From Deltaproteobacteria bacterium (GTDB lineage: Bacteria; CG2-30-53-67): 5,524 nt of DNA. How positions within the stretch are numbered: the first letter of the stretch is position 1; the number at the start of each line of letters is the position of its first letter. Location of the stretch: NCBI GenBank assembly GCA_013151235.1, contig JAADIO010000044.1, positions 1 to 5,524 of the forward strand, written 5' to 3'. A model generated the notes under the pieces. It made no database searches. It was not told where the DNA came from and saw only the letters and a program-made list of their open reading frames with translations. A program made the translations under genes and the position numbers. Positions 861-3,610 of this stretch are shown one piece after another.

Positions 861-2096
861 TCAAACGCTTTCAGGCTCTGCTTTCAAGGGAACATCCACC
901 AGCACATTCAGGGAAATGCCGGCCTGATCCTGGTGGATGACCTCTTTGATCCTGCGATGACTTTTATCATGAAGCAGGTCAATTCGATTCAAATTCTCAG
1001 AAGGATTCCCTGCCGGGTCCACAAAAATCCGTACAATGGGGGTCAGAAGATGATCCCGGTGGATCTCCGTCACCACACCGATCTCTCCCGAGGAGAGGAT
1101 CACCACAGTCCCGACCGGGTAGATACCAATCCGGGCGATAAAACGCTCCACCAGACCGGGTTCGAAGTTACCTTTCGCCATTCGGTAAATACGAGCAATC
1201 GCTGCATAAGGCATAAGCTTCGTCTGATAGACCCGTTCGGTCGTCATCGCATCGTAGACATCGGCAATGGCTGCGATCTTTCCGAATTCGGAGATTTCCC
1301 TCCCCTTTAGTCCGCGGGGGTACCCCTTTCCGGAGACTCGTTCGTGATGTTCCAGAGCGACCTGCATGCTTTCCATATTCATCCCCGGAATCTCCCGGAG
1401 GAGTTCCACACTGAAGACGGGATGCCGCTGAATCATTTTCAGTTCCGCTGGATCGAGTTTGCCCGGCTTGTTCAAAATTTCCTTGTTCACCCGCGTCTTT
1501 CCCACATCATGAAAGAGGGCACCCACCCCAAGTTTTTTCAATTCACTCTGGGTATAGTGCAGGGCCTTCCCGAGAATCAGGGAAAAGGTCGAAACATTCA
1601 CACAGTGCATAAAAGTATATTCATCAAAGTCCTGCAGTTTGGAAAGAATAAAGAGAACATCGGGATGATGGGTAATATGATCAATCATCCGGTCCACCAC
1701 CTCTTCAGCGGATTCCAGATCGGGAGATCCTCCTTCGGCAATATCCCGGTAAACCCCTTTAACACATTCTACGGCATGCCGCTGCAGAGCCTTGGCAACC
1801 CGGATTTCCTCAGGATCAAAAATAGACGGAATCTCTTTCGCCTGTTTGCTCGAGGATTCCGACTCCCCCTTCTTTCCCGGGGCAGGAGCGAACTCCGGTG
1901 AAACAGTCGCAGACCCGGCCCAGTCGCCCTTCTCCGTATCAACGTACAAAACGTCCACGTGATACTTCCGGAGCTTTTCAACCTGTTGCGGAGACTGGAT
2001 ATGCTTTTTGAAGAAGGGGATCTCGATCCAGGAGCGGTCCACTTTTTCAACGTACATGCCGATTTGAAGGTCATTGATATGGATCTTTTTCAGCAT
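861..2096 (-). CDS. DUF3391 and HD-GYP domain protein, predicted cyclic-di-GMP phosphodiesterase
   Basis: This 411-residue cytoplasmic protein is predicted to hydrolyse cyclic-di-GMP. Residues about 1-130 match the DUF3391 N-terminal region (KKIHINDLQIGMYVEKVDRS, then a LYVDTEKG strand), followed by a Ser/Lys/Pro-rich linker (about 62-92). The HD-GYP domain spans about 150-325. Visible signature residues are ALFHDVGK (H196, D197), the following NKPGKL segment, RHP (about 224-226), the H250-H251 pair in EHHERVSGKGYPRGL (GYP at 258-260), and IADVYDAMTTERVY (D279, D282). All expected metal ligands appear present. A C-terminal extension of about 90 residues (IGIYPVGTVVILSSGEIGVV and on) is common in this family. 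The start is ATG 2096-2094, because MLKKIHINDL is the conserved beginning of the family and AAGGTG lies 7 nt upstream. The frame stays open to 2240, but that extension is encoded by a repeat element and is not expected to be protein. No diguanylate cyclase domain is present. Confidence 0.92.
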   Translation of the reverse strand: MLKKIHINDLQIGMYVEKVDRSWIEIPFFKKHIQSPQQVEKLRKYHVDVLYVDTEKGDWAGSATVSPEFAPAPGKKGESESSSKQAKEIPSIFDPEEIRVAKALQRHAVECVKGVYRDIAEGGSPDLESAEEVVDRMIDHITHHPDVLFILSKLQDFDEYTFMHCVNVSTFSLILGKALHYTQSELKKLGVGALFHDVGKTRVNKEILNKPGKLDPAELKMIQRHPVFSVELLREIPGMNMESMQVALEHHERVSGKGYPRGLKGREISEFGKIAAIADVYDAMTTERVYQTKLMPYAAIARIYRMAKGNFEPGLVERFIARIGIYPVGTVVILSSGEIGVVTEIHRDHLLTPIVRIFVDPAGNPSENLNRIDLLHDKSHRRIKEVIHQDQAGISLNVLVDVPLKAEPESV

Positions 2097-2103
2097 TGCT
2101 CCG

Positions 2104-2109
2104 CACCTT
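2104..2109 (-). promoter_or_regulatory. Ribosome binding site deciding the HD-GYP start
   Basis: On the minus strand AAGGTG (2109-2104) sits 7 nt before the ATG at 2096. A second purine block, GGAG (2102-2099), is only 2 nt from the ATG and too close to be the main site. The AA of the site belongs to the TAA copy left by the inserted repeat, so the insertion preserved a complete Shine-Dalgarno. This supports starting the protein at 2096 rather than inside the repeat. Confidence 0.65.
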
Positions 2110-2134
2110 AGTGGTCCTGTTCGCAAATACTGTG
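2110..2134 (+). repeat. Left terminal inverted repeat of the element
   Basis: This arm begins AGTGGTCCTGTTCG and ends AAATACTGTG. It pairs with the reverse complement of 2217-2241 at 21 of 25 positions. On the plus strand two of the four differences would be G-U wobbles in RNA, so the helix is well kept in transcripts of that sense. Confidence 0.8.
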
Positions 2135-2216
2135 ACGCACCGAGAGGATCGCAGGGTGGTCTCGTCAAGGCGCTCGACTGAGGCGTACCCCCTGTGGTAC
2201 GGGGCAACTCAAATGC

Positions 2217-2241
2217 CACTGTATTTACGAATAGGGCCACT
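2217..2241 (-). repeat. Right terminal inverted repeat of the element
   Basis: Read on the minus strand this arm begins AGTGGCCCTATTCG and ends AAATACAGTG, mirroring 2110-2134. Its outermost bases overlap the TAA stop codon of cheW (2243-2241), so the element abuts the coding sequence without altering the CheW product. Confidence 0.8.
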
Positions 2242-2735
2242 TAGAGGCCATGCTCACCCAGCAAAATTTGCAGGTTGAGAAAAATCAGCAGACGGTCTTC
2301 CAGTTTTGCCACCCCCTGAATGAATTCAATATTGTTGTCCGAACCGTTCTCGGCATCGGGGGGCGCCAGAATAAAGGTATTGGAGATATTCAACACCTCG
2401 GACATGGAATCGACCATCAAACCGACGTTCTTTCCCGACTCTTCCACCACCACGATCCTTGCTTCTTTCTTCAGTTCGATCGCTTCCATCCGGAACCGTC
2501 TCCGAAGGTCCATGACGGGAATGATCTTTCCCCGGAGATTGATGACACCCTTCAGATAATCCGGCGTATTGGGCACCCGGGTCATCTCCTGCACCCGGAT
2601 AATCTCCTGCACCCGGAGAATATCAACGGCATATTCTTCCCGGCCCACATGAAAAGTCACTAATTGCAGCAGATTTTTCTCGGGTTCAACCTCCGACACC
2701 ACCTCCGTGGCTGCTCCGTTCGTTTTGACTTCCAT
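2241..2735 (-). CDS. cheW: Chemotaxis coupling protein CheW
   Basis: CheW is the cytoplasmic scaffold that joins the receptor tip to the histidine kinase CheA. This product has 164 residues. A non-conserved N-terminal tail (about 1-20) precedes a full CheW domain (about 21-162): LLQLVTFHVGREEYAVDILR, the conserved RVPNTPDYLKGVINLRGKII core (about 53-72) with VMDLRRRF after it, then RIVVVEESGKNVGLMVDSMS and the closing RLLIFLNLQILL strand. Length is normal for a single-domain CheW, and no CheA or receiver domain is fused. I start at ATG 2735-2733, because GGAGA lies 5 nt upstream. An in-frame ATG at 2765-2763 forms an ATGA overlap with the HDOD stop and would add ten residues (MKCRKGLEND), but it has a poor ribosome site. 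The stop TAA coincides with the border of the inserted repeat element. The adjacent MCP and CheB imply the same signalling complex. Confidence 0.95.
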   Translation of the reverse strand: MEVKTNGAATEVVSEVEPEKNLLQLVTFHVGREEYAVDILRVQEIIRVQEMTRVPNTPDYLKGVINLRGKIIPVMDLRRRFRMEAIELKKEARIVVVEESGKNVGLMVDSMSEVLNISNTFILAPPDAENGSDNNIEFIQGVAKLEDRLLIFLNLQILLGEHGL

Positions 2736-2740
2736 ATCGT

Positions 2741-2745
2741 TCTCC
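2741..2745 (-). promoter_or_regulatory. Ribosome binding site deciding the CheW start
   Basis: On the minus strand GGAGA (2745-2741) lies 5 nt before the ATG at 2735. It favours this start over the ATG at 2765, which is preceded only by ACATATTCGG. The site lies just downstream of the HDOD stop codon, so translation of the two genes may still be coupled. Confidence 0.6.
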
Positions 2746-2761
2746 AGCCCCTTCCGACATT

Positions 2762-3610
2762 TCATCCGAATATGTTCTTTTCTTCTTTGTAGTTCTTTTC
2801 AATCACCGGAATCAGCTCATCGAGTTGTGCGCCCGTGAAACCGAGGGTTTTCGCCGACTCCGAACCGTTCACATCGATGCCTTCCTCCGGTCCTTTGGTC
2901 CCGACCCCCAGGCGGTGGCAGATCATGTCGGCCAGATTGATGATCGCCGTCAGCGTCAGGATGTATTCATCCTCATCGGCCACCAACGTCGGGTTGTGAT
3001 GGAACTGAACGGCCTTTTCCAGTTCGTCGGTCAGGTTCCACTTCTTGATCACCAACGCCCCCACCTCGGGATGGGTAAATCCGAAAAGATCCTGCTCCGC
3101 CTCCAGCGCCGTGATCCCCTCATTGTAGGTCCGCTCCATCACCGCATTATAGAGATCACGGTTACTGTTGTTCATAATCACCTTGCCGATATCGTGCATC
3201 AGACCGCAGACGAAGACATCATCGACCTTGCTGATCTTGGCCTCCTTCGCCAGGATATGGGAGGCAATCCCCATTCCCACCGAATGTTCCCAGAGCATTC
3301 GCTCCGTCAGGCCGAAACTCTTGTAGACCTCCTTTGTCGAGACGGCAATCACCAGACTCCGGATGGCGCTGTACCCGATGATCACAATGGCGGACTGTAG
3401 ATTATTAATCGTCCGCAGACAACCATAGAAGGCGGAATTTGAAATTTTCAGAATTCGGGCCGTCAGGGCCGAGTCATCGGAGATGGTGCGGCAGATCATC
3501 GCTGAAGAGGTGTTGGGATCGGCAAGAAGTTTCATGACCTTATTGGCCACGTCGGGTACCGCCGGCAAATCACATGCGTCCATAATCACTTCTTCAATCG
3601 TCGCAGTCAT
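2762..3610 (-). CDS. HDOD domain signalling protein with intact HD residues
   Basis: This 282-residue soluble protein is built around one HDOD domain (about residues 8-212), a relative of the HD phosphohydrolases found in many bacterial signalling pathways. The N-terminal part has the family pattern LPAVPDVANKVMKLLADPNT (15-34), followed by ISDDSALTARILKISNSAFY (43-62). Many HDOD domains have lost the metal ligands, but this one shows H109 (WEHS), H139-D140 (GLMHDIGK), H180 (THPEVGA), H204-H205 (FHHNP) and D228 (NLADMI), so it may bind metal and be catalytic. The C-terminal tail (about 232-282) is variable and ends in a charged helix. ATG 3610-3608 has a strong Shine-Dalgarno, GGGAGGAA (3624-3617), 6 nt upstream. 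The gene lies 69 nt after the MCP stop and runs into the cheW start region. Its substrate is unknown. Position suggests it modulates or reports on the chemosensory system. Confidence 0.9.
   Translation of the reverse strand: MTATIEEVIMDACDLPAVPDVANKVMKLLADPNTSSAMICRTISDDSALTARILKISNSAFYGCLRTINNLQSAIVIIGYSAIRSLVIAVSTKEVYKSFGLTERMLWEHSVGMGIASHILAKEAKISKVDDVFVCGLMHDIGKVIMNNSNRDLYNAVMERTYNEGITALEAEQDLFGFTHPEVGALVIKKWNLTDELEKAVQFHHNPTLVADEDEYILTLTAIINLADMICHRLGVGTKGPEEGIDVNGSESAKTLGFTGAQLDELIPVIEKNYKEEKNIFG

Follow-up and report, generated by a model that had tools for sequence, protein, structure and literature searches.

A multicopy palindromic element between cheW-like and HD-GYP genes, probably a TNA-duplicating miniature inverted-repeat transposable element

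RESULTS

Anatomy of the cheW/HD-GYP junction

The window, the whole 5,524-nucleotide stretch of contig JAADIO010000044.1 that was analyzed, comes from a bacterium of CG2-30-53-67, a candidate phylum (PMC10591310). Two genes lie on its minus strand, and the gap between them is occupied by a short palindromic element. The features are as follows.

861 to 2096, minus strand: HD-GYP/DUF3391 gene (PF13487, PF11871), the downstream flank in the transcript; likely ATG at 2096, also the ATG in the empty-site relative
2108 to 2110, no strand: left copy of the target duplication TTA, within CTTAG at 2107-2111 (from family TNA duplications and empty sites)
2111 to 2240, plus strand: probable MITE copy with a 33-bp internal deletion relative to the 163-bp standard (multicopy; aligned with standard copy L031:1505-1667)
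2111 to 2135, plus strand: left terminal inverted repeat GTGGTCCTGTTCGCAAATACTGTGA, conserved across the 69-copy alignment
2185 to 2201, plus strand: apical hairpin GTACC..GGTAC of the element (from folds; helix 4 of the covariation analysis)
2216 to 2240, minus strand: right terminal inverted repeat, which reads GTGGCCCTATTCGTAAATACAGTGG from 2240 inward, conserved across the 69-copy alignment
2241 to 2243, minus strand: right copy of TTA, which is the cheW stop TAA (open reading frame 2241-2765, minus; G001, where the site is empty, has this stop too)
2241 to 2765, minus strand: CheW-like gene (PF01584, E 1.9e-39), the intact upstream flank in the transcript

The exact borders of the element are 2111 and 2240, giving 130 bp that begin with GTGG and end with CCAC, with TTA on either side. 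The terminal repeats are imperfect, 20 of 25 positions matching when counted from the first element base; the 21 of 25 given in the initial annotation is correct for a stretch shifted one base outward. The CTTAG copies that it reported are at 2107-2111 and 2240-2244, although the true direct repeat is the TTA within them, and the inner perfect hairpin that it described is present as well. A repeat finder at default settings reported none of these features.

The insertion left both genes intact and the operon readable, because the duplicated TTA is itself the cheW stop and the HD-GYP ATG lies beyond the left duplication. The stop (minus strand, 2243-2241) is found at the same place in a same-genus genome, G001, that lacks the element at this junction, and the likely HD-GYP start is 11 bases past the left duplication. 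An open reading frame with a GTG start that runs through the element (861-2240, minus) was rejected as spurious, since the element-free relative keeps the ATG at 2096.

A multicopy family in one lineage

A similarity search of the host genome with a 151-bp segment gave 31 matches, corresponding to about 20 distinct copies. Five same-family relatives also carry the element family, four of them with dozens of copies, and 35 more distant genomes gave zero matches at E 0.001. When ends were counted with up to 3 mismatches, the host genome had 37 and G001 to G005 had 166, 63, 81, 174, and 23, respectively, compared to 0 or 1 for the reversed pattern used as a control. From these counts, the family reaches roughly 80 to 90 copies per genome. 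When 84,980 species genomes were scanned for exact ends, matches came mainly from the host genome and its same-family relatives, plus a few metagenome-assembled genomes (MAGs) labelled Desulfobacterota. No family copy was found in plasmids or phages, and viral contigs held no exact match to the element ends.

Some of the copies in Desulfobacterota-labelled MAGs (L061, L141, L099, and L106) have the ends in common and a different core, or have the ends only. For instance, L061 (671-830) and L141 (4092-4251), both labelled as a Desulfobacteraceae MAG, combine near-exact ends with a different core in the same architecture, which suggests transfer or a shared transposase. The L064 and L131 copies, also from Desulfobacterota-labelled MAGs, resemble the main family and may sit on mis-binned contigs.

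Family members range from 130 to 263 bp, with 163 bp the commonest size (162 to 163 bp in most copies); the 69 aligned copies have terminal inverted repeats of 20 to 25 bp, and the copies that were read hold no transposase-sized open frame. Solo or shortened ends are numerous. The window copy is short because 33 bp that the standard has in its right inner arm are missing, and in the 263-bp form a nested module of 100 bp sits at one constant internal point. This module (CATCCCAAGATACCTTAATG...GGGGAAAAGA) has hairpins of its own and is found at the same internal point in many copies (L041, L051, L035, and L044); in L063 (7095-7292) it is present twice in tandem. Copies in L008, L015, L025, and L026 contain another nested hairpin, GCCTGCCTGTGCGG...CGCACGCAGACAGGC or one of its variants. 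At the other extreme are 28-bp remnants in L093 (6327-6354) and L106 (1439-1466), in which the two ends are directly joined; these are perhaps deletion footprints.

Target site and evidence of insertion

Identical 3-bp flanks were found in 57 of 102 full copies (TAA in 33, TTA in 23, and TCA in 1), whereas random re-pairing of the flanks averaged 26 and never exceeded 39, and shifting the register outward reduced the number to between 0 and 4. The duplication is 3 bp long, of the TNA type, and lies inside C-TWA-G. This is because the flanking C and G occur about 90% of the time while the terminal G and C of the element are invariant in intact copies: among 59 intact cases, the preceding base was C in 52 and the following base was G in 55, compared to 59 of 59 for the element-end G and C (Fisher p 0.0008). 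The alternative of IS3-like TG..CA ends with CTWAG as a 5-bp duplication was therefore rejected, since the flanking C and G vary (11 of 118) and the element ends never do. The 3-bp TTA duplication suggested in the initial annotation agrees with the TNA duplications that many family copies carry.

Two filled/empty site pairs were found against G001, the cheW/HD-GYP junction of the window and the L015 site. The empty sites are about 80% identical and represent orthologous junctions rather than the ancestral sequence itself. A second same-genus pair, G002/G004, yielded no clean empty site. Near-identical copies occupy different sites in G004 (L179, L182, and L184), which suggests fairly recent movement. 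The initial annotation had held that a single-copy segment, or conservation running on into both genes, would speak against mobility. A search for copies, which it had proposed, found many that have the ends in common and differ in their flanks, both in the host genome and in its relatives; conservation stops at the element borders, the flanks beyond the shared ends being unlike, and the same-genus junction is empty.

The landing at the cheW stop is not an isolated case: of 121 inward-reading frames, 21 have their end precisely in the duplication. There was no excess of such landings, however: 17 were at stops and 24 elsewhere, compared to 57 and 61 for all noncoding CTWAG sites in the examined DNA (p 0.47). 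This means that stop-codon landing reflects where CTWAG sites are, not a special preference. Insertions within coding frames were rarer than the CTWAG sites there would give, as selection predicts.

Folding and covariation

The element of the window folds better than all 200 of 200 shuffles on either strand (z of -5.0 on plus and -4.7 on minus). The initial annotation had described a branched secondary structure; the strong fold is real, but the branching is that of a damaged copy, arising because the window copy lost 33 bp of its right inner arm, and the standard copy folds as one long hairpin with internal loops. Across 69 distinct copies, 95.6% of hairpin cells are paired. The compensatory stem changes that the annotation had proposed looking for are present, with 18 pairs changed on both sides compared to 6.3 when shuffled, and not one of 500 shuffles reached any of the measures, although the hairpin was derived from the same 69 copies and is favored over slid controls for that reason.

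Two further explanations bear on this covariation. The first, which is possible, is that the arms are kept alike by arm-to-arm copying, through template switching at imperfect palindromes, so that the compensatory changes in a plain MITE would record how it mutates and not selection for the fold. Several copies have stretches that look copied, such as TTTGATCCG in the right arm and ATCTCCG/ATCCCCG in the left arm. Stretches apparently swapped between the arms of single copies were seen in L154, L162, L166, L168 to L170, L172, L179, and L182, a pattern that suggests template switching. Arm-to-arm copying thus seems to occur and may account for a share of the covariation. However, it should leave residual mismatches that are strand symmetric, yet the inner stem is lopsided, and the internal-loop bases stay unpaired and conserved.

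The second explanation is that one strand (plus, as oriented) folds as RNA or single-stranded DNA and that this fold drives movement or retention, in which case the element would be a mobile element dependent on its hairpin, or else a structured RNA, and not a plain MITE recognized through its double-stranded ends alone. We regard this as unlikely, and the narrower version, in which spread depends on the single-stranded fold of a hairpin-guided element that resembles a TNA-duplicating MITE and uses machinery as yet unrecognized, as slightly more so. The excess of pairs changed on both sides agrees with such a fold. So do the arm mismatches: with the strands treated alike, 520 were G-U on the plus strand compared to 172 on the minus strand, and all ten of the ten full copies folded were more stable on plus. 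However, the lopsidedness lies mostly in the inner stem (columns 38 to 53, 13 to 1) and a few family-fixed columns while the terminal-repeat columns are near even (12 to 8), which points to few independent events. The columns are not independent of one another, nor are the copies; the sign test over all aligned columns gave p 0.054. Neither is there a preferred transcribed strand, as no clear orientation bias relative to genes was found (22 versus 29 for co-directional neighbors), and a 3-bp duplication suits an ordinary DDE transposase. The G-U lopsidedness therefore hints, but does not prove, that folding of one strand, as RNA or single-stranded DNA, matters to the element.

That the element is a cis-acting terminator, attenuator, or riboswitch of the cheW/HD-GYP operon is barely credible, despite its strong fold and its position between two same-strand genes: copies lie beside unrelated genes, Rfam 15 covariance models gave no match to the window up to E 1 and none at the gathering score to L063, L075, or L124, and the empty junction in the same genus rules out a regulatory RNA of the cheW operon.

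Search for a mobilizing partner

No full-length insertion sequence (IS) with GTGG(C/T)CCT ends, which the initial annotation had suggested looking for, was found. Among 84,980 species genomes, draft assemblies of which often lose repeated IS, a scan for the exact pattern gave no autonomous element with the family ends, and stretches of 300 to 1400 bp between two ends proved to have unrelated or degenerate ends or to be nested insertions. In six genomes (drafts, from which repeated IS are often lost), DUF4096 (PF13340) and DDE_Tnp_1_2 (PF13586) had no match; DDE_Tnp_1 (PF01609) loci occur in four of the six and lack the family ends, and DUF772 (PF05598) matches fall in the same genes, again with the family ends absent. 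The IS5-family parent considered in the initial annotation thus found no support in these six genomes, where no IS5/IS4-type transposase locus had the family ends. The mobilizing partner may be missing from the drafts, may have been lost, or may be of another kind than those searched.

DISCUSSION

The element is very probably a miniature inverted-repeat transposable element that duplicates TNA and would be moved in trans by a transposase. It is short, has terminal repeats and a target duplication, is multicopy, and is absent from orthologous sites, which sustains the initial reading of a MITE-like nonautonomous element without a transposase. As judged from sequence patterns, a transposase supplied in trans would bind the inverted ends of about 20 to 25 bp and insert the element at C-TWA-G, with duplication of TWA; the pattern is observed, and the enzyme is putative. 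The end bases of the element itself restore CTWAG on both sides, so that an insertion at a TAA or TAG codon that ends a frame, as at cheW, keeps the frame and the stop. Copies would then decay through internal deletion and nested insertions, and the window copy is probably one such decayed copy. Transcripts across a copy would bear a stable putative hairpin, to which we assign no function.

The kind of element is already known, and the family is new to the collections and literature searched, in which no MITE description was found for the lineage around CG2-30-53-67. The TNA target duplication marks some IS5-family groups (IS427/IS1031-like), and the window family shares the 3-bp duplication with them, but no transposase or full-length IS with the family ends was found; TNA is the one feature connecting the two and is an unproven hint. 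The IS427-group elements tabulated in PMC3281130 have mostly 2-bp duplications. Prokaryotic MITEs are thought to need an IS in trans, according to PMC10969869. The same paper, citing Chen et al. 2008, describes the Chunjie MITE of Geobacter uraniireducens, with about 38 copies of 178 to 235 bp, conserved ends and duplications, and many partial copies. Conserved ends, duplications, and partial copies are shared with the window family, although the host lineage differs and the comparison is by that description, not by sequence. ERIC, Correia/NEMIS, RUP, and YPAL/RU-2 are nonautonomous repeats of <200 bp with target duplications and hairpin-folding transcripts, most with TA termini and A+T rich, and YPAL has empty and filled sites and duplications of 3 to 26 bp (PMC2229807). 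YPAL/RU-2 resembles the window family as a short nonautonomous repeat with filled and empty sites; in contrast to ERIC, Correia/NEMIS, RUP, and YPAL, the window family combines a G+C-rich body and GTGG/CCAC ends with TNA duplications in CTWAG.

As it stands, the finding is chiefly useful annotation, defining a MITE family in the lineage around the candidate phylum CG2-30-53-67. The cheW gap does not amount to a regulatory leader in its own right, and the HD-GYP annotation should begin at 2096. The family also offers a neat case in which the target site and the element ends jointly preserve stop codons. If the strand lopsidedness is confirmed, what reads the folded strand would become a question.
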